Origin: Thiohalobacter thiocyanaticus
Lineage (GTDB): Bacteria > Pseudomonadota > Gammaproteobacteria > Thiohalobacterales > Thiohalobacteraceae
Assembly (NCBI RefSeq): GCF_002356355.1
Contig: NZ_AP018052.1
Coordinates: forward strand, 1,178,001-1,242,000
Direction of reading: 5' to 3'
Length of the DNA: 64,000 bases
Shown piece after piece: positions 6,060-21,449 of the stretch; position 1 is the first letter of the stretch; each line of letters starts with the position of its first letter. Below the pieces are notes generated by a model that had not been told where the DNA came from, ran no database searches, and worked only from the letters and a program-made list of their open reading frames with translations. The translations under genes and the position numbers were made by a program.

Positions 6060-6235
6060 TCGGGTGCATGCCGGCGTTGCTGCGGTCAGTGCCGGGAGCG
6101 GCAGTTGCCATCAGTTCAGGTGGCTCCTGCTGCATCTCGGCAGAGCTGTACCTTGTGGCGCTCCAGCCAGGCCTTCAGCACGGCCATGTGACGGGTGGGG
6201 CGGCTGCCGTCCTGCTGCCCGCTCTTTCTACTAAC

Positions 6236-6254
6236 AATAACGATTATCATTTAG
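6236..6254. promoter_or_regulatory. Fur box / iron-regulated promoter of fecI
   Basis: The 19-mer AATAACGATTATCATTTAG agrees with the Fur consensus (GATAATGATAATCATTATC) over a core of GATTATCATT and lies 59 nt upstream of fecI. A possible -10 (TATAGT, 6268-6273) lies 17 nt past a weak -35 inside the box, so bound Fur would block the polymerase. The rest of 6060-6312 shows no gene. Confidence 0.7.
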
Positions 6255-6312
6255 ATTATTTTTATTGTATAGTCTGCTGGGAATGTCATAGGCAACACCT
6301 GATACCAGCGCC

Positions 6313-6825
6313 ATGTCATGGACTTACGAACAGCATCTGGCGGACTTCTACCGTCAGCATCACAGTTGGCTGCAGCAGCTGTTGCGTCGGCGAGCAGGCT
6401 GCTCCGAGACCGCGGCTGACCTGGCGCAGGATACCTTCCTGCGGCTGCTCAGCCGCGACGAGGACCTGAGCCGGATCGATTCGCCGCGGGCCTATCTGAC
6501 CCGCATCGCCCAGGGGCTGCTGGCCAACCACTGGCGCCGGCGTGACATCGAACAGGCCTATCTCGACGCCCTGAGCCGGCAGCCGGAAGCGCTCGCGCCC
6601 TCGCCGGAGGTGCATCACCTCATTGTGGAGACCCTGTATCGCCTGGATGCCGCCCTGCGGGACCTGCCGGAGCAGGTCCGCCAGGCCTTTCTGTTGTCCC
6701 GGCTGGAGGGCGTGCGCTATGCCGACATCGCCGCCGAGTTCGGGGTCAGTGAGCGTATGGTCAAGAAGTACATAGCCCGGGCCATGCTGCAATGCCTGCA
6801 GGCGGATCTGGATCTGGCGGCATGA
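6313..6825 (+). CDS. fecI: ECF sigma factor, FecI type
   Basis: 170-aa extracytoplasmic-function sigma factor. Region 2 is seen in the first 75 residues (HHSWLQQLLRRRAGC, then DLAQDTFLRLL) and region 4 in residues about 110-165 (LPEQVRQAFLLSRLEGVRYADIAAEFGVS). It sits behind a Fur box. Its stop overlaps the start of fecR, and a TonB-dependent receptor with an N-terminal signalling domain follows. This is the standard cell-surface signalling module, in which ligand binding at the receptor releases the sigma factor through FecR. Confidence 0.92.
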   Translation: MSWTYEQHLADFYRQHHSWLQQLLRRRAGCSETAADLAQDTFLRLLSRDEDLSRIDSPRAYLTRIAQGLLANHWRRRDIEQAYLDALSRQPEALAPSPEVHHLIVETLYRLDAALRDLPEQVRQAFLLSRLEGVRYADIAAEFGVSERMVKKYIARAMLQCLQADLDLAA

Positions 6826-7778
6826 CACAACGCCATGCAGGCAGCAGCGTGGACCCGATGGACGCCCTGGAGCAGGCCGCCGAATGGTTTGCCTGTCTGC
6901 AGGGCGAGGAAGTCAGCGCCACTGAACGCGAGCGCTGGCGGCAGTGGCTGCAGGCGAGTGCGGCGCATCGCCAGGCCTGGGCGCGGGTGGAGCGCATCGA
7001 CCACCAGTTCCGCAGCCTGCCCGCGCAGCCGGCGCGTCAGGCGCTGCAAGCGGCCGGTCGCAGTCGGCGCCGCTTCCTCAAGGGGGTGGTCGGGCTGGGC
7101 CTGGTGGCACCGGTGGGCTGGCTGGCCTGGCGGCAGATGGCGCCGACGGCGGGACTGACCCGGCTGCACACCGCCACCGGCGAGATCCGCGAAATCGAAC
7201 TCCCCGATGGCAGCCGGCTCTGGCTCAACACCGACACGGCCGTGCATCTGGATTACACCCCGGCGCTACGCCGGCTGGAACTGCTGGCCGGCGAGGTCCA
7301 TCTCGCGACCGCCGCCGATCCGCGGCCGCTGCGCATCGACACACCGTACGGCCCAGCGTCGCCCCTGGGCACCCGCTTCAGCGTGCGGCTGGAGGAACAC
7401 CGGGCCCGGGTCGCGGTGAGCGCCGGACGGGTCGCGGTCACACCCCGGCAGGGCGCCGGGACCAGTGAGATCGCGGCCGGCCGGGTGCGGACCTTCACCC
7501 GCCGGCAGGTGTCGGCGAGCACGCCGCTGACATCGCAGGACGCGGCCTGGCCCCGCGGCATGCTGGTGGCGGATAACCTGGCGCTGGGCGCGTTTCTCGC
7601 CGAACTGGAGCGCTATCGGGTGGGCGTGATCCGCTGCGATGCCGGGGTTGCCGACCTGAAACTGGTCGGCGCCTATCCACTGGAGGATACCGACCGCGTT
7701 CTCGCGGCCCTGGAGGCCAGCCTGCCGGTCCGGGTGACGCGCATCACCCCCTGGTGGGTCAGCGTACAGGCGCGCTGA
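6822..7778 (+). CDS. fecR: FecR-type anti-sigma / transmembrane signal transducer
   Basis: 318-aa inner-membrane regulator. A cytoplasmic N-terminal domain (DUF4880-like; WFACLQGEEVSATERERWRQW) precedes one membrane segment at about residues 73-90 (GVVGLGLVAPVGWLAW), the periplasmic FecR domain (TATGEIREIELPDGSRLWLN) and a C-terminal STN-like region expected to contact the receptor. The ATG at 6822 overlaps the fecI stop in an ATGA junction. The upstream ATG at 6792 lies inside fecI and is less likely. A repeat-A hairpin separates it from the receptor gene. Confidence 0.9.
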   Translation: MTQRHAGSSVDPMDALEQAAEWFACLQGEEVSATERERWRQWLQASAAHRQAWARVERIDHQFRSLPAQPARQALQAAGRSRRRFLKGVVGLGLVAPVGWLAWRQMAPTAGLTRLHTATGEIREIELPDGSRLWLNTDTAVHLDYTPALRRLELLAGEVHLATAADPRPLRIDTPYGPASPLGTRFSVRLEEHRARVAVSAGRVAVTPRQGAGTSEIAAGRVRTFTRRQVSASTPLTSQDAAWPRGMLVADNLALGAFLAELERYRVGVIRCDAGVADLKLVGAYPLEDTDRVLAALEASLPVRVTRITPWWVSVQAR

Positions 7779-7850
7779 GACAGTTCAATGCGCGTGCAAT
7801 GCCTACTCAAGAAAAAATCACGATCCGGTTCGGATGGCGCTTGCTCAGCT

Positions 7851-7934
7851 GTCATTGCGAGCGAAGCGTGGCAATCTCATACCGCAAAATCAGCCGGTCA
7901 GAGATTGCCGCGTCACTTCGTTCCTCGCAATGAC
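7851..7934. repeat. Dispersed palindromic repeat, family A (copy 1)
   Basis: An imperfect inverted repeat runs from GTCATTGCGAGCGAAGCGTG to TTCCTCGCAATGAC, with GGCAATCTC/GAGATTGCC inner arms. Related copies are at 17024-17107, 59339-59367 and 60517-60544. It lies between fecR and the receptor gene and has no coding potential. Confidence 0.85.
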
Positions 7935-8035
7935 CTTAAGCATGTGTCATTGCGATGCGGTTCCCCTTTTTCCGGCTCGCGGGGCAGAGAGGAAAACCAC
8001 CCTCTCAGAACGCAATTCGAATCAAGGAGTCCCGC

Positions 8036-10435
8036 ATGCAAACGCTCAACCGCCGCAGCCGCCCGCTGGCCCTGGCCGTCAGCCTTGCCCTGATCCCGCT
8101 GTCCCCGGCCGTCCTGGCCGCGTCGCCCGACGCAGCCGGTGCCCAGTATCAGGCCACCCAGCGCTACGCTATCCCGGCCGGCCCGCTGGGCACGGCACTG
8201 AGCCGCTTCGCCGCCGAGGCCGGGCTGCTGCTGTCCAGCGATGCCAGCCTGACCGCCGGCAAGCGCAGCCCCGGGCTGCACGGTGAATACAGCCGTGAGC
8301 AGGCCCTGCGCCAGCTGCTGGCCGGCAGCGGCCTGGAGTTCCGCTTTACCGATGCCGATACGGTGATGCTGCAGCCGGCATCCGGCGCGGGCGCGATGCA
8401 ACTGTCCACCATTGCGGTGACCGCCACCCGCGGCAACAGTGTCAAGGGGGAGACGCCGCAGAAGATCACCGTCATCGGCCGCGAGCAGATCGAGGAGCAG
8501 TTGCAGCACAGCACCAATCGCGGCCAGATCCTCAGCAACCTGATCCCCGGCTATACCCCGGGGCGGCAGAAGCTGACCAATTCCGGCGAGACCTTCCGCG
8601 GCCGCGATGCCCTGATCCTGATCGACGGCGTGCCCCAGTCCAATCCGCTGCGCGACAGCGCCCGCGACGGCTACACCATCGATCTCAGCATGGTCGAGCG
8701 CATCGAGGTGATCCACGGTGCCAGCGCCGAGCATGGCCTGGGCGCGACCGGCGGCATCATCAACTATGTGACCAAGCGGGCCGAGGCCGGTGAGCTCAAC
8801 CAGCACGCCGCCGTACGCATGACCGCCGACAACGAGTTCCACTCCGAGGGCCTGGGCTACAAGCTGGACTACCAGGTCAGCGGCCTGCGCGGCGACTGGG
8901 ACTATCTGGCCGCGGCCTCGGTGCAGGAGCGCGGCATCTTCTACGACGGCGAGGACCGCACCGTCGGCATCGACGAGATCTCGGGCGAGATCCAGGACTC
9001 CACCAGCTTTGATCTGTTCGGCAAGGTCGGCTACTGGCTGGACGACAACCAGAATCTGGAATTCTCCCTCAACCGCTTCGAACTGGAGAGCAATCACGAC
9101 TATATCGCCGTGGCCGGCGACCGCACCCGGGGCATCCCCACCACCTCGCGCGAGGCCACCCCGCCGAACGACGCCCCCTTCAACGAGGCAACCACGGCAA
9201 ACCTTTCCTACAAGCACCTAGACTGGCGCGACAACCAGCTCAAGGCGCAGCTCTACTATCAGCGCTTTCGCGCCCAGTTCGGCACCCACCCGACGGCCTT
9301 CCCCTACACGGATGCCATGGGCAACAGCCAACTCGACCAGACCCGCACCGAGTCGGACAAGCTGGGCGGCAAGTTCACCCTGACCCGCGCCGGCCTGTTC
9401 GATGACCGTCTCAAGCTCACCACCGGCATCGACCTGCTCCAGGACACCACCAAACAGGTGCTGGCGCAGACCGGGCGCACCTATGTGCCCGAATCGGTCC
9501 TGCACAACGCCGCCGCCTTCGTGCAGGGCAATATCCGGGTCATGGACGGGTTGTCACTGCACACGGGAGCCCGCTACGAATACGCGAAACTCGATGTCGA
9601 CGATTACAGCACCATCGACCGCAGCAACGTCACCCAGGACCTGGTCCAGGTCGATGGCGGCAGTCCCGACTTCAAGGAGCCGCTGTACAACCTCGGCGTG
9701 GTGTATCAGGCGACGGACAGGATCCAGCTGTTCGCCAATTATTCCGAAGGCTTCGGCATCCCGGATGTCGGCCGGGCGCTGCGCGGCATCAGCACGCCGG
9801 GTCAGGACGTGGATACCCTGGTGAAGCTGCAGCCGATCGTGACCGACAACCGCGAGATCGGCACCCGTCTGAGCGGCGAGCGCTTCGATCTGGAGATCAG
9901 CTACTACGAATCGGACTCCGATTTCGGCGAGCGCCTGACCCAGGTGGGCACGACCTTCGTTGGCAAGCGCGAGAAGGTGGAGATCCAGGGCGTCGACGTC
10001 AGCGGCAGCCTGCGGGTCAACGAGGCCCACAGCCTGGATTTGATCTACAGCTATAACGAAGGCAAATCCGACACCGACGGCGATGGCGAGGTCGACACCG
10101 ACCTGACCGGGTTCAATGTCGCGCCCGAGCGTCTTACGCTCAAGTGGCGCGCGGACTGGAACGACCGCATGTCCAGCCACGTGCAGCTCAGCCATTACTT
10201 CGACAATACCTTCAGCGACCAGACCAACGCCAACCTGCGCGAGTTCAACGGCTATGACCTGGTCGACGCCTCGCTCAGCTACCGCCTGCCGGTAGGCCGG
10301 GCCAGCCTGGGCATCGAGAATCTGCTGAACGAGGAGTACATCTCCTATTACTCGCAGACCGCACGCGACGGCGACAACCAGTACTTCGCCGGCCGCGGGC
10401 GCACCTTCACCCTGAGCTACGAGCTCGATTTCTGA
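8036..10435 (+). CDS. TonB-dependent siderophore receptor with STN signalling domain
   Basis: 799-aa outer-membrane receptor. A signal peptide (residues about 1-29, ending VLAAS) is followed by an STN domain (about 40-115, QRYAIPAGPLGTALSRFAAEAG), a plug domain (about 130-260, with ALILIDGVPQSNPL and VERIEVIHGASAEHGLGATGG) and a 22-strand barrel ending in a terminal Phe (YELDF). The ATG at 8036 has AAGGAG nine bases upstream. The STN domain together with fecI-fecR makes this the ligand-sensing receptor of the module, probably for a ferric siderophore. The exact ligand cannot be read from the sequence. Confidence 0.92.
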   Translation: MQTLNRRSRPLALAVSLALIPLSPAVLAASPDAAGAQYQATQRYAIPAGPLGTALSRFAAEAGLLLSSDASLTAGKRSPGLHGEYSREQALRQLLAGSGLEFRFTDADTVMLQPASGAGAMQLSTIAVTATRGNSVKGETPQKITVIGREQIEEQLQHSTNRGQILSNLIPGYTPGRQKLTNSGETFRGRDALILIDGVPQSNPLRDSARDGYTIDLSMVERIEVIHGASAEHGLGATGGIINYVTKRAEAGELNQHAAVRMTADNEFHSEGLGYKLDYQVSGLRGDWDYLAAASVQERGIFYDGEDRTVGIDEISGEIQDSTSFDLFGKVGYWLDDNQNLEFSLNRFELESNHDYIAVAGDRTRGIPTTSREATPPNDAPFNEATTANLSYKHLDWRDNQLKAQLYYQRFRAQFGTHPTAFPYTDAMGNSQLDQTRTESDKLGGKFTLTRAGLFDDRLKLTTGIDLLQDTTKQVLAQTGRTYVPESVLHNAAAFVQGNIRVMDGLSLHTGARYEYAKLDVDDYSTIDRSNVTQDLVQVDGGSPDFKEPLYNLGVVYQATDRIQLFANYSEGFGIPDVGRALRGISTPGQDVDTLVKLQPIVTDNREIGTRLSGERFDLEISYYESDSDFGERLTQVGTTFVGKREKVEIQGVDVSGSLRVNEAHSLDLIYSYNEGKSDTDGDGEVDTDLTGFNVAPERLTLKWRADWNDRMSSHVQLSHYFDNTFSDQTNANLREFNGYDLVDASLSYRLPVGRASLGIENLLNEEYISYYSQTARDGDNQYFAGRGRTFTLSYELDF

Positions 10436-10529
10436 ACGCGGCTGGCAGCATCAGGACAGCGAGGCAGGGAATTGGCCCAGGGAGTCTTGATGCGACCTCG
10501 CTGTCGGACGGAATCCGGGCGGTCAACCC

Positions 10530-10560
10530 TCCTGGATCCCGGCCTGCGCCGGGATGACGG
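10530..10560. repeat. Dispersed palindromic repeat, family D (half copy)
   Basis: This is a single arm of the family-D element: TCCTGGATCCCGGCCTGCGC followed by CGGGATGACGG. Full copies occur at 39948-40028 and 58434-58506. Confidence 0.75.
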
Positions 10561-10592
10561 CATGGAAAACCATCGGATGCTACACAGTGCGC

Positions 10593-10877
10593 ATGAACCG
10601 CAGAATGAAACAGGGTCTCGTCTTCGCCCAGCAGATCGGCCTTGCACTTGCCGGCGGCTACGGCCTGAGCGTGCTGCTCACCATGCTGCTGGCCCGGGCG
10701 CTCAGCGGCCTGCTGGCGCGCAGCGAGGCTGTGGTGCTGTCGGCCATGCTGGGGTTTGTCGTCTACCTGCTGGTCCTGCTCTGGGCCTTCGCCGAGCGCC
10801 GGCTGCCCAGGTTGTGGCTGGTGCTGGGGGGCGGCGGCATCGCGGCCCTGGTCATGGTGCTGCTGCATTCCGCCTGA
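10593..10877 (+). CDS. DUF3649-like small inner-membrane protein of the iron-uptake locus
   Basis: 94-aa protein with three predicted membrane helices (roughly residues 12-33, 43-63 and 70-92) and basic ends. Its position directly before a PepSY-TM protein and a DUF3325-like protein, downstream of a siderophore receptor, is the usual context of DUF3649 proteins, and size and topology fit. The function is unknown, perhaps in reduction or handling of imported iron. Start choice among ATGs at 10554, 10593 and 10605 is uncertain because no strong ribosome site is visible. Confidence 0.65.
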   Translation: MNRRMKQGLVFAQQIGLALAGGYGLSVLLTMLLARALSGLLARSEAVVLSAMLGFVVYLLVLLWAFAERRLPRLWLVLGGGGIAALVMVLLHSA

Positions 10878-10881
10878 TTGA

Positions 10882-12432
10882 ATGATGCACCGTTCCTTCC
10901 GCGAATCCATGCGCTGGCTGCACACCTGGGCCGGCCTGGTGCTGGGTGCCCTGCTGCTGGCTATCTTCTGGACCGGCACGTTGAGTGTGTTCGACAAGGA
11001 GATCGACCGCTGGATGATGCCGGCCACCCGGCTGGCGCCCGCCGATACTGTCGCGCTGGAGCCGGCCCTGGCCACGGCCCGGCGCATCGCGCCTGACGCG
11101 CCCAACTTGCGCTTCATGCTGCCGTCCGAACGGGCGGCACAGCTGCGCCTGTTCTATACCGATGCCGCCGGTGAGCTGGTATTCCGCGATCTGGATCCCC
11201 GCACCGGCCGGCCCCTGGCCACACTGGACACGCTGGCCGGTTCCGGCTTCTTCTTTCCCTTTCATTACTCGCTGCACCTGAAATGGAACGATCTCGGCTA
11301 CTGGCTGGTGGGTCTGGCCGGCATGGCGATGCTGGCGCTGCTGGTCAGCGGTGTGGTGATCCACCGTAAGCTGATCGGCGAGTTCTTCGTATTCCGCCCG
11401 CGCAAGCGGCTGCAGCGCGCCAACCTCGATCTGCACAATCTCACAGGCGTGCTGGCGCTGCCGTTTCACTTCGTGGTGACCCTGTCGGGCCTGATCATCT
11501 TCTTCAATATCTATTTCCCACAGGCCGCGACCCTGGCCTACAGCGAGGCAAGCGCGCCCAACGCCACCTTCGTCGAAGAGGGCTTCGGCCGCTACCGACG
11601 GCCGGCCAGTGGCGAATCGGCCGAGCTGGCGCCACTGGGACCCATGCTGGCGCGCGCACGGGCGGCCTGGGGGGGCGACGGTCCGGGCCAGCTGCGCATC
11701 TGGCACCCGGGGGATGCCAATGCCTATGTCGAGCTGCGCCGCAGCACGTCGCGGATGGTGCGCATGAATCGCGATCAGTTGTACTTCGACGGTGTCAGCG
11801 GCGAGCTGTTGCACCGGTTCGAGGCTGCGCCCCTGATGCGGGCCCAGCGCTTCATCGCCGGAATGCATTTCATTCAGTTCGATCACTGGCCGCTGCGCTG
11901 GCTGTATTTTCTCGGTGGCCTGTCCGGCTGCGTAATGATCGCCACCGGCTTCATCTTCTGGCTGGAGGCCCGGCGCCGTCGCCATGCCCGGCAGGGACGC
12001 AGCGGGGTGCGTCTGGTCGAGGGGCTGACCATCGGGTCGGTGACCGGCATTATGATCGCCACCCTGGCCTTCTTTGTTGCCAACCGGCTGCTGCCGAGCG
12101 AAGCGACCGTGGCCGGCGTCGAGCGCGCCGCCCTGGAGGTATGGGTATTCCTGCTGGCCTGGCTGGCCGCCCTGATACAGGCCGCATGGCGCGGCGGCCG
12201 CGCCTGGCGTGAGCAGAGCCTGGCCATTGCCGGCCTGGCCCTGCTGGCCGTGGCCCTGAATGCCGTCACTACCGGGGATCATCTGCTTCGCACCCTGGCC
12301 GCGGGTGACGGGGCCGTCGCGGGTATCGACCTGATGCTGCTGACAGCCGCGGCGCTGGCGGCCTGGATGACCCGGCGGTTGCGACCGGGCAGGCGGGTCA
12401 CGACGGCGGGTCGGGAGCAGCGGCGTGGCTGA
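10882..12432 (+). CDS. PepSY-associated transmembrane protein (siderophore-iron reductase-like)
   Basis: 516-aa inner-membrane protein with an N-terminal helix (RWLHTWAGLVLGALLLAIFW), a large periplasmic PepSY region, and further membrane segments with conserved histidines (NLHNLTG-like DLHNLTG; HFIQFDHWPLRWLYFLGG). This is the PepSY_TM/PiuB-FoxB family; members have been linked to reductive release of iron from siderophores. The stop of the DUF3649-like gene is 5 nt upstream, and the gene overlaps the next one by 8 nt, so the three are probably co-translated. Two adjacent ATGs (10882 and 10885) make the exact start ambiguous. Confidence 0.87.
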   Translation: MMHRSFRESMRWLHTWAGLVLGALLLAIFWTGTLSVFDKEIDRWMMPATRLAPADTVALEPALATARRIAPDAPNLRFMLPSERAAQLRLFYTDAAGELVFRDLDPRTGRPLATLDTLAGSGFFFPFHYSLHLKWNDLGYWLVGLAGMAMLALLVSGVVIHRKLIGEFFVFRPRKRLQRANLDLHNLTGVLALPFHFVVTLSGLIIFFNIYFPQAATLAYSEASAPNATFVEEGFGRYRRPASGESAELAPLGPMLARARAAWGGDGPGQLRIWHPGDANAYVELRRSTSRMVRMNRDQLYFDGVSGELLHRFEAAPLMRAQRFIAGMHFIQFDHWPLRWLYFLGGLSGCVMIATGFIFWLEARRRRHARQGRSGVRLVEGLTIGSVTGIMIATLAFFVANRLLPSEATVAGVERAALEVWVFLLAWLAALIQAAWRGGRAWREQSLAIAGLALLAVALNAVTTGDHLLRTLAAGDGAVAGIDLMLLTAAALAAWMTRRLRPGRRVTTAGREQRRG

Positions 12433-12736
12433 ACCGGTGTTGCTGGCGACGCTACTCGGCGCCAGTTGGCTTGGCTGGGCCTGGCTGGCGCTGAGCCAGG
12501 CCCGGCATTGGCGGCAGGCGGTCGGCCTGAGACTGCCCGGATGCCGGCAGATGCTGTGGCTGCGCGCTGCAGGCGCGGCGCTGCTTGGCACCGCCCTGGT
12601 GCTTGCGCTGCTGCGCGACGGCCCGGCCTTCGGTGCCCTGCTGTGGGCCATCGCGATCAGTTTCACCGCCATGGCCGTGGTGTTCATCCTTGCCTGGCAG
12701 CCCGGCTGGCTGCGGTGGCTCGCCCCCTTTCGCTAA
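12425..12736 (+). CDS. DUF3325-like small membrane protein
   Basis: 103-aa hydrophobic protein starting at GTG 12425 inside the end of the PepSY gene (8-nt overlap). It has about three helices with the motif LALSQARHWRQ after the first helix, typical of DUF3325 proteins that follow PepSY iron-reductase genes. The function is unknown. It is the last gene of the iron island and is followed by about 290 nt without a gene. Confidence 0.65.
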   Translation: MAEPVLLATLLGASWLGWAWLALSQARHWRQAVGLRLPGCRQMLWLRAAGAALLGTALVLALLRDGPAFGALLWAIAISFTAMAVVFILAWQPGWLRWLAPFR

Positions 12737-12779: not shown

Positions 12780-12916
12780 ACGTTCAAACCAGCCTACGCT
12801 CGAGGCCGGGTACGCACACGTCGGTTGGGATGGAGCCGAGGCGTAATTCCGGCAATCTCGGTCTGTCACAGGTCGGCGGGATGCTGGGTTTCGTTCCACT
12901 CAACCCAGCCTACGCG
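12780..12916. repeat. Degenerate palindromic repeat region
   Basis: The stretch contains halves resembling the dispersed hairpin families (GCCTACGCTCGAGGCCGGGT; CTGGGTTTCGTTCCACTCAA followed by CCCAGCCTAC) but no complete pair of arms. No coding potential is apparent. Confidence 0.45.
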
Positions 12917-12942: not shown

Positions 12943-12956
12943 TTGATCTATATCAA
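12943..12956. promoter_or_regulatory. FNR/Anr-type binding site upstream of the receptor-cytochrome pair
   Basis: TTGATCTATATCAA is a perfect match to the FNR/Anr consensus TTGAT-N4-ATCAA. It is centred about 80 nt upstream of the GTG start at 13030, at the head of an AT-rich promoter patch (12930-13020) that stands out from the GC-rich surroundings. The same patch contains AATAATAATAATT, weakly similar to a Fur box. Oxygen-dependent control is inferred. Confidence 0.7.
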
Positions 12957-13029
12957 ATACAAATAATCATGCGAATAATAATAATTCGTATAACAATATC
13001 ATCATTCTTCAGCAAAGAGAGATTGTCCT

Positions 13030-15096
13030 GTGTGCAAGCGTTCTGGCATCGAAACCCTGGGCAGTATTCTGTCGATGTTTCCCTTTGTTGCCTTGATGAT
13101 AGCCCCGGTGCTGGCTGAGGAGGGACCCATCGCGTTGGATGCGGTGTCTGTTACCGCCAAGGGTTATGAATCCGGCGTGCTCGACACCCCTGCGTCTATC
13201 ATGATCATCGATCGGGAGGAAATTCGGCGCCGCAATCCCGATAACCTGGGTGAAGCCGTGCGTGGCCGGCCAGGCCTGGCGGCCACCTCCGACAGCGCTC
13301 ACGGTCAGAATCCGGTCATCCGCGGTCTGAAAAAGGAAAGTGTGGTTCTGCTGGTCGACGGCATGCGGCTGAATTCAGCGCAACCGGCCGGGGCGATCGC
13401 CTCGTTCATGTCACTTGATCTGGCCGAGCGTGTAGAAGTGGTCAAGGGCCCGGCCTCGGTGCTCTATGGTACGGGGGCGCTGGGCGAGGCCATCAATGTG
13501 CTGCTGCCTCAGGCCCGCTTCCTGCCCGGCCATGACTTCGCTGCCAGCGCCGCCTATGAAAGCGCTAATCAGGGACTGCGAGGTACCGGCGTGATGAATG
13601 CTTCTCAGGACCATCATGCCGTAATGCTGGGCGTCTCGCTGGCACGCATCGATGATTACGACTCCCCCGGGGGCAGGGTCCCGCGTACCGGCTATGACTC
13701 CGATGCCTATATCGGCCAGTATCGTTACCGCCTGGACGAAGCCCAGCAATTGCGTTTCTCGCTGCAGCAGCAGGAAGACCGGGATATCTGGTTCCCCGGT
13801 TCTAGCAAGCCACACCCGCATCCGCTGATCGACCAGTCGGTCATCCATTCTCCTCAGACCCGCCGGCGGCTGGTCGAGGTGGGCTATGGTTTCGAGGGGG
13901 AGGGTGAGCGACCGCTAAATTTGGATTTACGGCTCTACCGGCAGGAGTTGCAGCGCCGGATCTTCTCCTTTGTCGAGCCGCAGGACTTCAACCTCGCCGA
14001 GACCGAAGTCAGCTTTGATAGCGATGGGCTGGATGTGCGGGCAGACTGGCTGGCTCACCCGGCGCACCTGATCTCCGTCGGAGCAAACGCCTGGCGCATG
14101 GAGGCCTCGCCGGAGCGTGATCTGCGCGACATGACCAATCCACCCGACTTCCCCTTTGCACGCAATGATCCCTTTCAGGATGGGCGCATTGAAGCGCTGG
14201 GCTTTTATGTGCAGGATGACATGCTGTTCGGTGATCTGAATGTCCTCGCTGGCCTGCGTTACGATCAGGTGGAAGGCGATGCCTCGGCGGTGGGTAACCC
14301 GCGGGTGACCACAGGCCTGGACAGTCGCGACAGTGCCATCTCCGGCAACCTGGGCGCGAGCTACCGCGTTTCACCACTGCTGCGCCCCTATGCCAGTCTG
14401 TCGCGCGGCTTCCGTGCCGGGGATATGCGTGAACGCTTCGAGTCCTCTCCCCGGGGCGATGGATTTTTCCATGTCGGCAACCCGCGTATCGAACCGGAAA
14501 TCGCCCACCAGGTCGAGATCGGCGTCAAGGGTGCTGATGGGGCTCTCAGCTATAATCTCTCCGCCTACTATAACCGCATCAATGATTACATCACCGGACA
14601 GCCCACCAACCAGATCATGAGCGGCCGGCCCGTAAAACGTACGGTCAATCTGGGCAGCGTCACTATCACCGGGCTGGAGGCCGAACTGCACTGGCAGGCA
14701 CTGCCGGGCCACTGGCTGTCCCTGGGCTACTCGCGTCTGCGCGGTGAAAACGATGATCTCGACGAGCCCCTGTACCAGATGCCGGCCGACGAAGTCTCGC
14801 TCGGTTGGAATGGCCGCTTGTACGCCGGCTGGACGGCCGATGCCGTTTTGCGCCTGGTGCGCCGTCAGGACCGGGTCGCCACCACTTTCAGCAACGCCAC
14901 CGAGGATCCCACACCCGGGTTCACCACCCTGGACGTTGGTGTCACCTGGGAATATGCGCGGGAGCAGTCGCTGCGTCTGGCGGTGACCAATCTCAATGAC
15001 AAGCGGTATCACGAGCATCTCACCGAGGGCATTTCCGGAGATGAGATCAAGCAGCCGGGCCGTAACTTTCATCTCATCTGGAAAGGGAGTTTCTGA
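13030..15096 (+). CDS. TonB-dependent receptor, substrate unknown
   Basis: 688-aa outer-membrane receptor with a signal peptide (about 1-30, ending VLAEE), a short TonB-box-like DAVSVTA, a plug domain (VIRGLKKESVVLLVDGMRLN, then VEVVKGPASVLYGTGALGEA) and a beta-barrel ending WKGSF with the terminal aromatic residue. It has no STN domain, unlike the receptor at 8036. The start is GTG with AGAGAG upstream; an internal ATG at 13075 is an alternative. Its stop shares one base with the start of a c-type cytochrome gene and it lies behind an FNR-type site. Heme, metal or siderophore uptake are all possible; the sequence does not decide. Confidence 0.9.
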   Translation: MCKRSGIETLGSILSMFPFVALMIAPVLAEEGPIALDAVSVTAKGYESGVLDTPASIMIIDREEIRRRNPDNLGEAVRGRPGLAATSDSAHGQNPVIRGLKKESVVLLVDGMRLNSAQPAGAIASFMSLDLAERVEVVKGPASVLYGTGALGEAINVLLPQARFLPGHDFAASAAYESANQGLRGTGVMNASQDHHAVMLGVSLARIDDYDSPGGRVPRTGYDSDAYIGQYRYRLDEAQQLRFSLQQQEDRDIWFPGSSKPHPHPLIDQSVIHSPQTRRRLVEVGYGFEGEGERPLNLDLRLYRQELQRRIFSFVEPQDFNLAETEVSFDSDGLDVRADWLAHPAHLISVGANAWRMEASPERDLRDMTNPPDFPFARNDPFQDGRIEALGFYVQDDMLFGDLNVLAGLRYDQVEGDASAVGNPRVTTGLDSRDSAISGNLGASYRVSPLLRPYASLSRGFRAGDMRERFESSPRGDGFFHVGNPRIEPEIAHQVEIGVKGADGALSYNLSAYYNRINDYITGQPTNQIMSGRPVKRTVNLGSVTITGLEAELHWQALPGHWLSLGYSRLRGENDDLDEPLYQMPADEVSLGWNGRLYAGWTADAVLRLVRRQDRVATTFSNATEDPTPGFTTLDVGVTWEYAREQSLRLAVTNLNDKRYHEHLTEGISGDEIKQPGRNFHLIWKGSF

Positions 15097-15608
15097 TGAA
15101 CGGCAATCGCAGCTTTGTGCAACGTTTCGGCTGGCCACTGCTCTCCGGTATTCTGGCACTCATGCTCGCGGGCGTCCTGGCGTTGCTGTTGCTGCCAGGC
15201 CGTGTCGCAGAGACCCCCTCGAGCGACGGACGGATGCGACTGCTGCTCGAACCCGCCGAGCGCGATTATGTGTTGGCCGAAATGCGCGACCTTCTTGCCG
15301 CGGTCCAGGTCATCACCGAGGCCGGTCTCGATGGCGACATGGAGCGTGTTGCCGAGCATGCACGCCGCATGGGCATGGGTGGGGTTCGCAACATCCCGCC
15401 GGAGATCCGTGCGGGACTACTGCGCAAGCTGCCTGCGGAGTTCAGGCAGCTGGGCTTTTCCGTACACCAGGGAATGGATGCCATCGCCCTGGATGCCGAG
15501 TCCCTGGGCGACCCTGAGCACAGCCTGCGTCAACTCAGCAACCTGATGAACACGTGCATCGCCTGCCATTCCGGCTATACCGTTATGCCTCCTCCGACCT
15601 CGCCTTGA
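15096..15608 (+). CDS. Membrane-anchored monoheme c-type cytochrome
   Basis: 170-aa protein with one N-terminal membrane helix (about residues 12-34, LLSGILALMLAGVLALLLL) and a helical periplasmic domain. The only heme-binding motif is CIACH at residues 154-158, close to the C-terminus. This layout resembles cytochrome c' / c556 four-helix proteins, in which the CxxCH lies on the last helix, but the family assignment is tentative. The start overlaps the receptor stop (TGATG), so translation is coupled. Its role with an outer-membrane receptor is unknown; redox processing of an imported metal or heme is one idea. Confidence 0.8.
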   Translation: MNGNRSFVQRFGWPLLSGILALMLAGVLALLLLPGRVAETPSSDGRMRLLLEPAERDYVLAEMRDLLAAVQVITEAGLDGDMERVAEHARRMGMGGVRNIPPEIRAGLLRKLPAEFRQLGFSVHQGMDAIALDAESLGDPEHSLRQLSNLMNTCIACHSGYTVMPPPTSP

Positions 15609-15860: not shown

Positions 15861-16958
15861 TCAGAACAGCGCCATCTCCATTTCCAGATAGACGAAATTG
15901 GCATTGCGCCTGTGGTTCTCCTCGTACAGGGGTACGTCAGCCCAGTCCGTGAAATGCGACTGCTCCACCGCCTCGCTGAGGGTGAGGCCGTCGTCGATGG
16001 CGGCGGCCATTTCGTCACGCAGGCGCTGAATGTAGGCGCGGGTCTTTTCGACCATGGGGAAGGGCGGGGTCTGGGCGCTGCCGTGGCCAGGCACCATCAG
16101 GCGGGCGTGCGGGAAGGTTTGCAGCAGCCAGTCCTGCGCCTCGAGGGCCTGGATGCTGTTGCCGTCGCCCATGAAGGTGGTGCGCTGGTTGAAGGCCAGA
16201 TCCGAGATCCACAGAATGTCCTCTCCGCTCTGGTGCACCACCAGATCACCATAGGAGTGGTGTTTGCCGGCATTGTAGATATCGAAGCGTTCATCTCCCA
16301 GTTCGAGTGAATACGGAATGCCCAGTCGGGGTCGGTCGATGAGTACATCGGGCGCAACGCCCTCGAAGCCGCGCATGTCCGCGCCCAGGATGTCACGGCG
16401 GTAATCGGCCGATTCCTGTAGCACCGGTGTGCCGAGGTAGTCGAGGATGCCGGGATGGCCGATGACAGTGACTTCAGCGTCGAGTTCGCGAAAGGCGGCG
16501 GCGCCGTAGGCATGGTCCGGATGGCTGTGGGTGAGGATGAGGTAGCGGATCGGCCGGTCGGTGACACTGCGGATGGTGGCGATCAGGCGATGGCCGAGTT
16601 CCGGCGTGCCCAGGCTGTCGATGACCACTACCCCTTCGGTGGTGACCACGAAGCCGGCGTTGCCGTTGAAGCCACGGTTGCGCTCGTTGACCTGAGCGAT
16701 ATTGCCATAGAGGAAATAGGTGTCGGGCGCCAGCTGGTAATAGGGCAGGGGCCTGTCGTCCGGGGCGTCAGCATCGATGACGATGCGGGGCAGAGTGTCG
16801 GTATCGATGGCATTGGGCGGCAGCCGGTTGTCGGGATGGCGCTCGGCAGAACCGGGGTTCTGCAGGCTGCCGTCGGGTTCGGCCAGGGCCGGAGCGGCGA
16901 GTGCGCCGCTCAGAATCAGCGCCTGCGACAAACGCACCAGTACCTGATAGCCGGGCAT
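15861..16958 (-). CDS. Periplasmic metallo-beta-lactamase-fold hydrolase, SoxH-like
   Basis: 365-aa protein with a signal peptide (to about residue 26, APALAEP) and a metallo-beta-lactamase fold. The zinc motif THSHPDHAYG (HxHxDH) and downstream metal histidines (GKHHSYGD and PGHGSAQ) are present. It resembles the quinoprotein-relay / SoxH group of zinc hydrolases found near sox or methanol-oxidation genes, whose substrate is not established. The ATG at 16958 is preferred over 16964 or 16982 because GGAG lies six bases upstream. The soxB terminator and a MITE-like insertion lie between it and soxB, so it is probably transcribed separately. Confidence 0.82.
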   Translation of the reverse strand: MPGYQVLVRLSQALILSGALAAPALAEPDGSLQNPGSAERHPDNRLPPNAIDTDTLPRIVIDADAPDDRPLPYYQLAPDTYFLYGNIAQVNERNRGFNGNAGFVVTTEGVVVIDSLGTPELGHRLIATIRSVTDRPIRYLILTHSHPDHAYGAAAFRELDAEVTVIGHPGILDYLGTPVLQESADYRRDILGADMRGFEGVAPDVLIDRPRLGIPYSLELGDERFDIYNAGKHHSYGDLVVHQSGEDILWISDLAFNQRTTFMGDGNSIQALEAQDWLLQTFPHARLMVPGHGSAQTPPFPMVEKTRAYIQRLRDEMAAAIDDGLTLSEAVEQSHFTDWADVPLYEENHRRNANFVYLEMEMALF

Positions 16959-16981
16959 GTCCATCTCCACATTTACAATCA

Positions 16982-17137
16982 TTGTCTGACCCGAATGGCA
17001 CTTAGTTAACCCGAATCATGCCAGTCATTGCGAGGAACGAAGTGACGTGGCAATCTCCAACCGGTTGATTCTGCAGTACGAGATTGCCACGCTGCGCTCG
17101 CAATGACGGTTATCTAAGTGCCATTCTTGTCTGACCC
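16982..17137. mobile_element. MITE-like insertion with 11-bp direct duplication, containing repeat A (copy 2)
   Basis: TTGTCTGACCC occurs exactly at 16982-16992 and again at 17127-17137. Between them lie 134 bp bounded by terminal inverted repeats: GAATGGCACTTAG on the left starting at 16994, and its reverse complement ending at 17126. The arms extend, with one mismatch, to 19 bp. The interior (17024-17107) is a family-A palindrome. No protein is encoded. The arrangement looks like a non-autonomous insertion with a target-site duplication, placed 24 nt upstream of the SoxH-like start codon. Confidence 0.75.
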
Positions 17138-17201
17138 CGATGATAGCAGCCGTAAAACCGCTTTTCATGCAGGGGCATGTCAGCCTGTCACTGCCGCACA
17201 T

Positions 17202-17229
17202 AAAAAAACGGCCGCGGATGCGGCCGTTT
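17202..17229 (-). terminator. Rho-independent terminator after soxB
   Basis: A 10-bp stem (AAACGGCCGC, GGAT loop, GCGGCCGTTT) followed on the minus strand by a run of T, 26 nt beyond the soxB stop. Confidence 0.85.
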
Positions 17230-17254
17230 GCGGTGCGTGAAGAAGCCCTGCGGC

Positions 17255-19018
17255 TTACTGCTGGAAGGTCTTCGCCAGTCCGGGGTTGCCGGCCACGTTC
17301 TTCAGTTTCGGCGTGTTCAGCTCGGTGACACTGACCGTCTTCTGATTGCGCAGGTAGGTCGCCACCACGTCCCAGATCGGTCGGGTGTCCAGCGGCTCGC
17401 TGACATTGGCCCAGCCGGCCACCGCGTACTCCTTGTCCGGATCGATCGGCTTGCCGTTGAGCTCCATGTCGGAGATGCGGTTGCCGATGGTGGCGGTGGG
17501 GTCGATGCTGTACTTCAGACCGCCGACGCGGACCATGTCGCCGCCCTGCTGATAGTAGGGATCCTTGTTGAAGATGTTGTCGGCCACGTCTTCCAGGATG
17601 ACCTTGATCCGCTCGCCGGTCATGTTGTTGAGCGTGGTCGAGGGATAGGTCAGCGCGGTCTGCGTCATCAGGTCCTCAAAGGTGATGGGCTGGCCGGGCA
17701 GCAGGCTGGTGCCCCAGCGGAAGCCGGGCGAGAAGGCGATCTCCGCGCCCATCTCCTCGATCATGGCGTCGCAGATCAGCTGGTCGAAGGTGCCGTTGAA
17801 GTTACCGCGCCGGTACAGGGTGGTATCGGTGACGGCCAGTTCCTCTGCCAGCTTGTCCTTGTAGGGCGCGCGTACCGCTTCGATATGGGCGCTCATCTCG
17901 GCGTCGGCCTCCAGCAGGTTGGAGAAGACCGGCAGCAGGTGATACTTGAAGTCGCGCACCTTGCCGTTCTTCACATCCAGGTCCAGCACGCCGAGGAACT
18001 TGCTGTTGGAGCCGGCGTTGGTGACCAGGGTCTGGCCGCCGCTGTTGCTGACCACCAGCGGCTGCGGCATGGCGTCGTGGGTGTGGCCGCCCATGATGGC
18101 GTCGATACCGCGCACCTGCGAGGCCATCTTGATGTCCACGTCGGCGCCGTTGTGGGAGAGCACGATCACCACCTGGGCGCCCTCGCCGCGGGCCTGATCC
18201 ACCATCTGCTGCATGCGCTCGTCGCGGATGCCGAAGCTCCAGTCGGGGATCATGTAGCCGGGGTTGGCGATCGGGGTGTAGGGGAAGGCCTGGCCGATGA
18301 TGGCGGTCGGCACGCCGTTGATCTCGCGGATCGAGTAGGGCTTGAAGATGGGGTCGCCCCAGTCGTTGTCCACCACGTTCTGGGCGAGGAATTCGATTCT
18401 GCCCTGGAAATCGTTCTCGATGATCTCCATGACGCGCTCGGCGCCGTAGGTCATTTCCCAGTGCGGGGTCATGATGTCCACGCCGAGCAGCAGCTGGGCG
18501 TCGACCATGTCCTGGGCGTTGGTCCACAGCGAGGTAGCCGAGCCCTGCCAGGTGTCGCCGCCGTCGAGCAGCAGGGAGCCGGGGCGCTGGGCGCGGATGC
18601 GCTTGACCAGGGTGGACAGGTGAGCGAAGCCGCCGACCTTGCCGAAGGTGCGGGCGGCTTCCTCGAAGTTCAGATAGGTGAAGGCATGGGCCTCGGGGGT
18701 CCCGGGCTTGATGCCGTAGTACTCCAGGAATTTCTCGCCCACCAGGTGCGGCGGACGCCCCCGCATGTCACCGATGCCGAGGTTGATGCTGGGTTCGCGG
18801 AAATAGATCGGCAGCAGCTGGGCGTGGCAGTCCGTGTAGTGCATCACCGAGACATTGCCGAAGGCGGGGATGTCGTACAGGTCGCTGGATGCCGCGTTCG
18901 GTTTCACGCCCCCGGGCTGCTTCTGGGTGGACGATCCGGATTCGCAGCCGGACAGATGGATCCCCGACATGCCGGCGATGGCCAGCATCTGCAGGAATTC
19001 GCGGCGTGACAGACTCAT
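17255..19018 (-). CDS. soxB: Thiosulfohydrolase SoxB
   Basis: Dimanganese enzyme of the periplasmic Sox pathway that hydrolyses the terminal sulfonate from SoxY-bound thiosulfate as sulfate. 587 aa, close to family size. The N-terminus MSLSRREFLQ is a twin-arginine signal. Metallophosphatase/5'-nucleotidase motifs follow: HYTDCHAQLLP, DGGDTWQGSA, SHNGADVD and GGHTHDAMPQ, then the 5'-nucleotidase C-terminal domain. GGAGG precedes the ATG. It is the last gene of soxXYZAB, although a terminator-like hairpin lies between soxA and soxB. Confidence 0.97.
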   Translation of the reverse strand: MSLSRREFLQMLAIAGMSGIHLSGCESGSSTQKQPGGVKPNAASSDLYDIPAFGNVSVMHYTDCHAQLLPIYFREPSINLGIGDMRGRPPHLVGEKFLEYYGIKPGTPEAHAFTYLNFEEAARTFGKVGGFAHLSTLVKRIRAQRPGSLLLDGGDTWQGSATSLWTNAQDMVDAQLLLGVDIMTPHWEMTYGAERVMEIIENDFQGRIEFLAQNVVDNDWGDPIFKPYSIREINGVPTAIIGQAFPYTPIANPGYMIPDWSFGIRDERMQQMVDQARGEGAQVVIVLSHNGADVDIKMASQVRGIDAIMGGHTHDAMPQPLVVSNSGGQTLVTNAGSNSKFLGVLDLDVKNGKVRDFKYHLLPVFSNLLEADAEMSAHIEAVRAPYKDKLAEELAVTDTTLYRRGNFNGTFDQLICDAMIEEMGAEIAFSPGFRWGTSLLPGQPITFEDLMTQTALTYPSTTLNNMTGERIKVILEDVADNIFNKDPYYQQGGDMVRVGGLKYSIDPTATIGNRISDMELNGKPIDPDKEYAVAGWANVSEPLDTRPIWDVVATYLRNQKTVSVTELNTPKLKNVAGNPGLAKTFQQ

Positions 19019-19170
19019 CGATAACCTCCAGTGTACAAGGTGGAAAAGGGTAGACCGGCGCGAGGCAGGTACGGTGTCGCAGCCCGCCGTTTCTACAGCT
19101 ACAGGGGGCGTTCCAGAGTGGACGTGCCCGGCCGACGGGTTATTCCATCAGGATGATTCAATTTTAAACA

Positions 19171-19199
19171 AAAAACCCGGTTTGGCGAACCAAACCGGG
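19171..19199 (-). terminator. Terminator or attenuator between soxA and soxB
   Basis: A 10-bp perfect stem (CCCGGTTTGG, CGAA loop, CCAAACCGGG) followed by a T-run on the minus strand, 26 nt past the soxA stop. It should end much of the soxXYZA transcript and so reduce soxB, or soxB may have a promoter in 19019-19170. Confidence 0.8.
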
Positions 19200-19224
19200 C
19201 TGATTGGCTGATCAGGTTATCAGC

Positions 19225-20061
19225 TTACTTGCGGGCACCGGGACCATTGACTTCCAGACCATTGCTCATGTAGGTGTGGAAGTACTCCAGGGCCTTGTAC
19301 TCGTCGCTCTGTGCCGGGAACGGCTTGGCGCGGACCTGCTTGTTGCAGCCGCCGTAGCGACGGTGCAGGGTGCCGAGCTCGCCCCACTTGGAGCGGTACA
19401 CCGGGAAGTGCGTCACATGGCCCAGGGCCGGGCTCAGCAGATCGGCACGGACGTTCCTGCCGGCGTTGTAGACGTGGCAGTCGGCGCAGGCCATGTTGAG
19501 CTGGCCACGCTTGGCATAGAAATGCGCCTTGCCGCGCTCGTAGGCCTCCATGGCGCGTTCGTCATCGGGGATCTCGATGTCGATCTCATTGCCACGCGAG
19601 GTATAGGCCATGTAGGCGGAGATCTGGGCGATCTTGCCCTTTTTCCAGCCCAGCGGTTCCTCGCCGTTCTTCACGCGGCAGGCGTTGATGGCGCCTTCCA
19701 GGGTGACGACCTCACCGCTCTTGGTGTCGAAGTAGGGATAGTTCTGACGGATGCCCTTGCCGTCGTTCTCGAAACAGCTGGCGTAGGTCTTGCCGTTCTT
19801 GAACGGGGTGTTGAACATCTCCTTGCCCGCGGAGATATCGATCTCGTAGGGCGGGAAGTCCTCGATGGCCTCCCACTGTTCCCGCGATGCCTCATCGAGT
19901 GCATAAACGCCGTTGACGTAATCATTCATGGGGACGTCGGGGAACCGCTTTTCAAAATAGGTCCGGAATTCCTTCAGATCTTCCTGCGGAGTGGCGCTGG
20001 CCGGTTGGGGGACCATCGCCACCATGCCTGCTGCGGCAACCGCTGCTAGGATTTTTCTCAT
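19225..20061 (-). CDS. soxA: Sox cytochrome subunit SoxA, monoheme type
   Basis: 278-aa periplasmic subunit of SoxAX, which oxidatively couples thiosulfate to the SoxY carrier cysteine. The signal peptide ends near ASATPQ. There is one heme motif, CADCH (about residues 192-196). At the place of the N-terminal heme of diheme SoxA there is only ASCFENDG, and a second cysteine (INACRVKNG) probably forms a disulfide with it, so this is a monoheme SoxA. The catalytic cysteine ligand is in RRYGGCNKQVRAKPF. GGAGG precedes the ATG. Confidence 0.95.
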   Translation of the reverse strand: MRKILAAVAAAGMVAMVPQPASATPQEDLKEFRTYFEKRFPDVPMNDYVNGVYALDEASREQWEAIEDFPPYEIDISAGKEMFNTPFKNGKTYASCFENDGKGIRQNYPYFDTKSGEVVTLEGAINACRVKNGEEPLGWKKGKIAQISAYMAYTSRGNEIDIEIPDDERAMEAYERGKAHFYAKRGQLNMACADCHVYNAGRNVRADLLSPALGHVTHFPVYRSKWGELGTLHRRYGGCNKQVRAKPFPAQSDEYKALEYFHTYMSNGLEVNGPGARK

Positions 20062-20088
20062 TGATGCTGCCTCCTTCGGTTATCAGCC

Positions 20089-20113
20089 GGGACCGCACCA
20101 GCGGCGCGGTCCC
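20089..20113 (-). other. Intercistronic hairpin between soxZ and soxA
   Basis: GGGACCGC pairs with GCGGTCCC across a 9-nt loop in the 59-nt soxZ-soxA gap. There is no T-run, so it is more likely an mRNA processing or stability element than a terminator. Confidence 0.5.
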
Positions 20114-20120
20114 GTCATCA

Positions 20121-20435
20121 TTATGCGATTTTGGTTTCGATGGAGTCGCTCTCACCCTTGTTGTCAACCCAGCGCAGGGTCAGGGTGTCGCCTTTCTCGG
20201 CGCCCTTGAACCGGAAGGAGAGGTAAGGGTTCTTGGAAATGGCGGGGCCCCACTGCGCAGTCATGACGGTTTCGCCCTTGTGCTCGCAGACGACTTCCTG
20301 GATGTAGTGCGCAGGGATCGTCTTGCCTGTCTTGCTGTCCTTGCGCAGACCGGTTTCCATAATGTGGCTGATCAGGGCCTTCACCGTCGTGGTGTCGCCG
20401 GAAAGCCTGGCGCGAATCTTGATCGTGTTTGCCAT
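20121..20435 (-). CDS. soxZ: Sulfur carrier complex subunit SoxZ
   Basis: 104-aa immunoglobulin-like subunit that pairs with SoxY and presents its swinging arm to SoxAX and SoxB. The sequence begins MANTIKIRARLSGD, contains ISHIMETGLRKD and ends with LRWVDNKGE, all usual for SoxZ. It has no signal peptide and would be exported with SoxY. It lies directly downstream of soxY in the sox operon. Confidence 0.95.
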   Translation of the reverse strand: MANTIKIRARLSGDTTTVKALISHIMETGLRKDSKTGKTIPAHYIQEVVCEHKGETVMTAQWGPAISKNPYLSFRFKGAEKGDTLTLRWVDNKGESDSIETKIA

Positions 20436-20484
20436 TGTACTAAACCTCGTTTCGTAAGAAATATCCGCTGAGTAGGGTCGCTGA

Positions 20485-20958
20485 TCAGCCGCCGCAGCCG
20501 CCGATGGTGACCTTGACTTCCTTGCCGGTGCTGTGGAGGGTGCCGCCGGCCTTGACCACGGCGATGACGCTGGAGGTCTCGCTCATCTTGATGCGGGTGG
20601 CCACGAAGCCTTCCGCGCGGGGACTCATCACATAAGCGGAAGTCAGCGGAGTATTGTTCTTTTCCGCAATGATGCTGATGCTCTCGACTCCGTCAATCGA
20701 TGTTTCGACGGAGATCGGCACCACGGCGCCGTTCTCGGCGATGTCGGGAGCCTTGATCTCGATCTTGTCGCTGCCTTCGAGCTGGCTCTGGCCTACCAGC
20801 GCGTTAAGGGCATCGTCCACTGAGGTGGCCTTGAAGGCATCCTTGGGCCAGGCGGCCAGGACTGTGCGCGGTGCGAGCAGTCCGCTGCCGACGGCAATGC
20901 CCACGGCGCCTGCTGCCAGTGAGCCTTTGAGTAGGGTTCTGCGTTTCATGTTCGTCAC
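20485..20958 (-). CDS. soxY: Sulfur carrier protein SoxY
   Basis: 157-aa carrier whose C-terminal cysteine holds pathway intermediates. The C-terminus IGGCGG is the intact swinging arm. The N-terminus has a twin-arginine type signal (MKRRTLLKGSLAAGAVG). A GTG at 20958 lies seven bases after AGGAG; the ATG at 20949 is an alternative start that gives the usual N-terminus. The gene sits between soxX and soxZ. Confidence 0.95.
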   Translation of the reverse strand: MTNMKRRTLLKGSLAAGAVGIAVGSGLLAPRTVLAAWPKDAFKATSVDDALNALVGQSQLEGSDKIEIKAPDIAENGAVVPISVETSIDGVESISIIAEKNNTPLTSAYVMSPRAEGFVATRIKMSETSSVIAVVKAGGTLHSTGKEVKVTIGGCGG

Positions 20959-20987
20959 GACGTTTCTCCTAACTGGACTGTATCCTG

Positions 20988-21362
20988 TTAAAGCGTGTAG
21001 ATGAATTCAACCACCTTGTCGATCTCGTCCTCGGACAGGATGTCATGGCGTCCGAAGGGAGGCATCATCGAGTTGGGGTTCATCTTGGTGGAATCCCAGA
21101 TCTGGGCGCGCAGCTTGGACTTGTCGGGGAACCGCGCCTTCATGGCAATCAGGGGCGGGCCGATGTTGCCGGCGAGATCGCCGCCTTCGATCTGGTGGCA
21201 GGCAAGACAATTGCCCTTCTTGCGGTCAAAGGCAATCTGCTTGCCTTGTTCGATGACAGAAGCCTCCTCGGCGGATGCGCTTCCGATCGGTGCCAGTGAC
21301 ATACTTCCGAGCAAGATCGCAACGGAAGCGGCGGACGTTATGATGCTTTTGCCTTGCCGCAT
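20988..21362 (-). CDS. soxX: Sox cytochrome subunit SoxX
   Basis: 124-aa monoheme c-type cytochrome partner of SoxA, accepting electrons from thiosulfate coupling. A signal peptide (to about ASAEE) is followed by the heme motif CLACH (about residues 51-55) and the distal methionine region NSMMPPFGRHDILSEDEI. The ATG at 21362 has GAGGAGG seven bases upstream and is preferred to the in-frame start at 21404. It is the first gene of soxXYZAB, about 100 nt downstream of a strong-looking promoter. Confidence 0.94.
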   Translation of the reverse strand: MRQGKSIITSAASVAILLGSMSLAPIGSASAEEASVIEQGKQIAFDRKKGNCLACHQIEGGDLAGNIGPPLIAMKARFPDKSKLRAQIWDSTKMNPNSMMPPFGRHDILSEDEIDKVVEFIYTL

Positions 21363-21449
21363 CTGTGCCTCCTCAGTGGTGTGGGTGTTGTGTGTTGATG
21401 TCATGTAACGTCAGGGTGCCAGCATAACCAAGCCCCTGGGTTGGGGATG

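Follow-up and report, generated by a model that had tools for sequence, protein, structure and literature searches.

The window, a 64,000-nucleotide stretch of the Thiohalobacter thiocyanaticus genome, carries a gene for a TonB-dependent outer-membrane receptor that runs into a gene for a membrane-anchored c-type cytochrome, and the same arrangement is kept in four other gammaproteobacterial genomes. Judged from the DNA sequence, the two genes most likely form one translationally coupled operon. Our reading, held with somewhat less than even confidence, is that the pair serves to take up a metal complex, most likely an iron complex of the heme or ferric-chelate type, that it includes a dedicated periplasmic redox protein and that it is switched on as oxygen and iron both become limiting. 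Receptors paired with a redox protein are already known; what is new here is that a c-type cytochrome takes this place, and that an oxygen-sensor site lies in most promoters of the receptor clade. The pair is not described in the available parts of the literature linking FNR, Fur and TonB, and within the available parts of the literature searched no TonB receptor is assigned a c-type cytochrome as its specific reductase. To our knowledge, both the way in which denitrifiers source the extra iron and copper for their respiratory enzymes and the periplasmic reduction of imported metal complexes are poorly known. A conserved operon of receptor and electron carrier, apparently governed by oxygen and metal together, provides a compact and testable means of studying both, and places c-type cytochromes among the candidate periplasmic metal reductases.

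A coupled and conserved gene pair

The pair comprises the following features.

13030 to 15096, + strand: TonB-dependent receptor of the outer membrane, 688 aa, starting at GTG; closest to the curated TonB-hemin family, whose cut-off it does not reach
15083 to 15098, + strand: conserved translational junction, a ribosome-binding sequence in the final receptor codons followed by the TTCTGATG stop/start overlap
15096 to 15608, + strand: c-type cytochrome with a single heme and a membrane anchor, 170 aa, predicted to fold as a four-helix bundle of the b562/c556 type

The original prediction that the receptor stop overlaps the cytochrome start is borne out, with the receptor TGA overlapping the cytochrome ATG (TTCTGATG at 15096). 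The same TGATG junction (TTCTGATG), again with a ribosome-binding sequence, is found at four further loci (L005, L006, L046 and L047), where the receptors are 62-67% and the cytochromes 62-70% identical to those of the window. Both the pair and its overlap are thus kept in five genomes. The five pair receptors form one clade with support of 100/100, and the five pair cytochromes likewise form one clade among 42 relatives, also with support of 100/100. The closest receptors that lack a cytochrome partner (L084, L088, L094 and L095) are approximately 45% identical to that of the window and constitute a sister clade.

The receptor-cytochrome pair is rare. With strict thresholds, receptor matches were obtained in 5/274 genomes of the class, two of which hold such a pair (the window's genome and G134), and in 3/398 genomes of the phylum; a close receptor was not found on any plasmid searched. 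At two of the loci a DUF2325 gene lies upstream of the pair (L005, 4505-5755; L047, 12254-13498), and this gene is absent from the window's genome.

Control sites in the receptor promoters

Two candidate control elements precede the receptor gene.

12943 to 12956, no strand assigned: FNR-type box TTGATCTATATCAA, 87 bp 5' of the receptor start codon
12965 to 12992, no strand assigned: stretch resembling a Fur box, with 12-13/19 matches to GATAATGATAATCATTATC that overlap at offsets of 3 and 6 bases

The perfect FNR site claimed ahead of the receptor gene is present, 87 bp before its GTG, and is the only perfect TTGAT-N4-ATCAA match in the window (TTGATCTATATCAA at 12943-12956), the next best carrying one mismatch. 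Seven perfect sites occur genome-wide, whereas the reversed pattern, used as a control, gives 0; one of the seven lies 5' of fnr itself (L045, 8532; gene at 8673). The FNR protein is encoded in the same genome (NF008365, 299 bits, cut-off 228). When a box was allowed at most 1 mismatch and sought within 300 bp, with control genes taken from the same loci, FNR-like boxes were found in 6/9 receptor promoters across both clades versus 4/169 control genes (Fisher p = 4e-7). A chance origin of the FNR match is rejected by this comparison at the level of the clade, not promoter by promoter. The six receptors are those of the window, L005 and all of the sister loci (L084, L088, L094 and L095); no such box was found within 300 bp of the L006, L046 and L047 receptors at up to one mismatch. 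Conservation of the site, which the original prediction had proposed as a check, therefore holds for most receptors of the clade, but for only 2/5 cytochrome pairs (window and L005).

The window promoter probably also bears a Fur (iron) box just 3' of the FNR box. This stretch (12965-12992), which was missing from the earlier account, is AT-rich and has a local shuffle p of 0.035. Fur-like matches of at least 13/19 occur in 5/9 receptor promoters versus 8.9% of controls (p = 0.001), and mostly sit just downstream of the FNR-like box. They are weak in L005, L006 and L047, and in L084 the FNR match overlaps Fur-like sequence and is readable as either site. The Fur-type iron box is a candidate control element as important as the FNR box. 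Were FNR to act from its usual position at -41.5, transcription would start at approximately 12991 and the Fur-like stretch would lie over the promoter. FNR would activate and Fur would repress the operon, which would then be expressed under a joint scarcity of oxygen and iron, as in denitrification. The oxygen control originally proposed is accordingly retained in part: it is favoured by the encoded FNR protein, the clade-enriched boxes and denitrification genes in 7/7 genomes (below), and qualified by the presence of the box at 2/5 pairs and by the overlooked Fur element. The intergenic region ahead of the receptor also contains two copies of a repeat, CAA(C/A)CCAGCCTACG, at window positions 12785-12797 and 12901-12913.

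The receptor, its surroundings and the nature of its substrate

The receptor has Plug (PF07715) and barrel (PF00593) domains, both above their gathering scores. Its best curated family is TonB-hemin TIGR01785, at 264.5 bits for the window receptor and 269-295 bits for its relatives, all under the curated cut-off of 316.85 bits. PhuR and ShuA are the closest solved structures, across almost the full length of the receptor, and OprC is also among the closest. In ShuA and PhuR, heme is bound by a plug His plus a loop His or Tyr. By alignment, neither the plug nor the loop ligand positions are conserved in these receptors, which thus differ from the TonB heme receptors that are their best-scoring family and structures. 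The suggested comparison with known substrate classes hence gives TonB-hemin as the nearest class, while neither the family cut-off nor the heme ligands support full membership. A receptor model built from a three-sequence alignment has a pLDDT of 27. Two loops, a plug loop NSAQPxG and a DxDVWYPGS loop, are conserved in both receptor clades, so the ligands of the two clades may be alike.

Genes for iron acquisition stand directly upstream of the pair on the same strand.

6313 to 12736, + strand: iron-type operon of a FecI sigma factor, FecR, a TonB siderophore-type receptor, a small membrane protein, PepSY_TM and DUF3325

Strong overlapping Fur-like sites (window 6230-6260) lie ahead of this FecI/FecR siderophore operon. 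On the other side, 3' of the pair and on the - strand (15861-21404), are soxBAZYX, read by eye, and then a SoxH-like metallo-hydrolase that scores under its family cut-offs. Iron or heme genes adjoin the pair at three loci: that of the window, L006 (HutW, HutX and HmuQ) and L046 (FTR1, bacterioferritin-associated ferredoxin and bacterioferritin). HutX was not found in the seven genomes searched (the window's genome and six others), and the L006 heme-use cluster is therefore no general feature.

These observations bear on another explanation, that the gene encodes a plain Fur-controlled heme receptor, with a coincidental FNR box and an incidental cytochrome. TonB-hemin as the best family, the position of the L006 pair within a heme-use cluster and the 3/5 pairs lacking an FNR-like box are all in keeping with this. 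The enrichment of FNR-like boxes across the clade, the loss of the heme ligand positions and the absence of HutX from the window's genome and the six others searched nevertheless make it very improbable.

Copper is a more serious rival to iron. Genes of the cd1-domain (nitrite reductase) family are present in 7/7 of the receptor genomes searched versus 54/274 in the class, and genes of the nosZ family in 7/7 versus 4/8 other genomes tested, the latter being a small, hand-picked control set. The window's genome holds both cd1-domain genes and nosZ, and in G443 the receptor lies approximately 14 kb from nosZ on the same contig. The presence of nosZ in all 7 searched receptor genomes fits a role in copper supply, whereby the receptor would bring in chelated copper for nitrous oxide reductase and other denitrification copper enzymes, and the cytochrome would reduce Cu(II) to Cu(I). 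NosA provides a precedent for a copper receptor, and the window receptor is, like NosA and OprC, a TonB-type protein tied to nosZ-carrying denitrifiers; OprC is, moreover, among its closest solved structures. The CrtA copper receptors, which have a conserved site of Y130, W265, E337, Q356, H358 and R395, are a further precedent (PMC12914433). 

The sister clade also contributes to this case. An NMT1-type substrate-binding protein and NnrS are encoded nearby in 4/4 sister loci, ABC permease/ATPase genes were seen in three of them (L084, L094 and L095), and in L094 and L095 the cluster adjoins anaerobic ribonucleotide reductase genes. NnrS, which the sister receptors adjoin, is a heme/copper protein. 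In its own right, this cluster of TonB receptor, NMT1/ABC genes, NnrS and FNR-like boxes resembles an undescribed uptake system of denitrifiers. 

Against copper stand the Fur-like boxes and the iron and heme neighbours around the pair, the limited nosZ control set, and two features of the receptor that set it apart from NosA and OprC: a score of 149.2 bits to TonB-copper TIGR01778 (OprC/NosA), well under the cut-off of 472.45, and a conserved NSAQPxG plug loop without Cys or Met. The Fur-like promoter sites are likewise a difference from NosA/OprC. We consider import of a copper chelate somewhat unlikely; iron is the likelier metal, with copper for N2O reductase a serious rival.

The cytochrome and the proposed redox step

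Two features of the cytochrome gene mark its predicted heme site.

15282 to 15284, + strand: codon for Met63, which is conserved without exception in 42 family members and predicted to supply the sixth (axial) ligand of the heme
15555 to 15569, + strand: CIACH heme c attachment motif, residues 154-158

The membrane anchor of the original prediction is upheld by an N-terminal hydrophobic helix, with hydropathy up to 2.8 and residues 5-31 helical in the model, and the 170-aa protein has a single CIACH, located C-terminally. Its description as c'-like is more approximate. The protein scores 15.8 bits to Pfam Cytochrom_C_2 (PF01322), under the gathering cut-off of 26.5, and a family relative in L063 scores 27.4 against the same cut-off. 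An AlphaFold2 model (five sequences, mean pLDDT 80) consists of a four-helix bundle behind the membrane helix, for which Foldseek ranks cytochrome cb562 and cytochrome c' highest (E = 0.02, probability 1.0). VIA-align places residues 57-162 onto residues 1-106 of b562 with a Z of about 10, which is modest for a helical bundle, in a match list full of receptors with an engineered b562 insert. Met63 and His158 fall at Met7 and His102 in this alignment, and these two residues are the heme ligands of b562. No meaningful match emerged when the cytochrome sequence was compared with those of solved structures, and the assignment of the fold draws on the Foldseek matches, the position of the CXXCH and the register of the ligands taken together.

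Across the family Met63, Cys154, Cys157 and His158 are invariant. An invariant Met63 in the register of b562 Met7 points to electron transfer rather than to an open heme site, and the model suggests a six-coordinate (Met/His) cytochrome that is b562/c556-like rather than an open-site cytochrome c'. The c'-like label therefore survives for the C-terminal CXXCH and the predicted four-helix bundle, and gives way at the weak PF01322 score and the predicted coordination. With class II cytochromes (the c556, c' and b562 fold) the protein shares its C-terminal CXXCH, predicted antiparallel four-helix bundle and first-helix Met; it differs in its N-terminal membrane anchor, its score under the PF01322 cut-off and its apparent co-translation with a TonB receptor.

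The known precedents for such a partner belong to a different protein family. In FoxB, HiuB and CrtA/CrpH a TonB receptor lies beside a membrane heme reductase of the PepSY_TM type (PMC13038864, PMC12914433). FoxA/FoxB, HiuA/HiuB and CrtA/CrpH resemble the window pair in that the gene for a metal-complex receptor is accompanied by one for a heme protein anchored in the membrane and presumed to act on periplasmic metal. The window protein differs in having a single-helix anchor, covalent heme and a c-type four-helix fold, as opposed to the multi-helix PepSY_TM proteins, and in the FNR box of its operon. By analogy, the receptor would carry a metal complex into the periplasm, where the inner-membrane-anchored Met/His cytochrome would pass electrons from the respiratory chain to the complex or to a partner, and the metal would thereby be freed as a reduced ion. 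In this role the cytochrome would be the c-type equivalent of the PepSY_TM reductases that lie beside other TonB receptors. In its full form this makes the pair a reductive uptake module of denitrifiers, in which a complex of iron or copper enters through the receptor, electrons from the co-translated cytochrome free the metal, and low oxygen (through FNR) together with metal starvation turns the operon on, a proposal that we regard as possible if doubtful. CrpH of Bordetella, the closest functional precedent, was found to be independent of the complex imported by CrtA (PMC13038864), which counsels caution in reading the cytochrome as a reductase.

The wider distribution of the cytochrome would also fit a different role. 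Members of the family are mostly stand-alone, with no adjoining TonB gene, and the cytochrome therefore need not act on an imported substrate. It may instead be a general anaerobic electron carrier or an NO-related protein captured 3' of the receptor, with the coupling serving joint expression only. The window's genome contains a stand-alone paralogue, 47% identical (L038, 9675-10145; G000:C1, approximately 495.7 kb), in an island with nor-type genes (read by eye), nnrS and a UbiU-like gene. Two other stand-alone relatives have a perfect FNR box just 5' (L055, near 10130; L064, 8876-9442; 0.02 expected), and that of L064 adjoins a nirS/nirE cluster. This explanation is nonetheless unlikely in our estimation, since the same junction is held in five pairs despite widely differing genomes, and the pair cytochromes form a clade of their own, distinguished by a 4-residue insertion near residue 103 and by loss of the Tyr-Arg motif after the heme site. 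Elsewhere in the family, cytochrome genes lie directly ahead of those for a membrane-fusion protein and an AcrB-type pump (L007, 6932-12689; L063, 9619-14558), and in L007 two family cytochromes stand in tandem.
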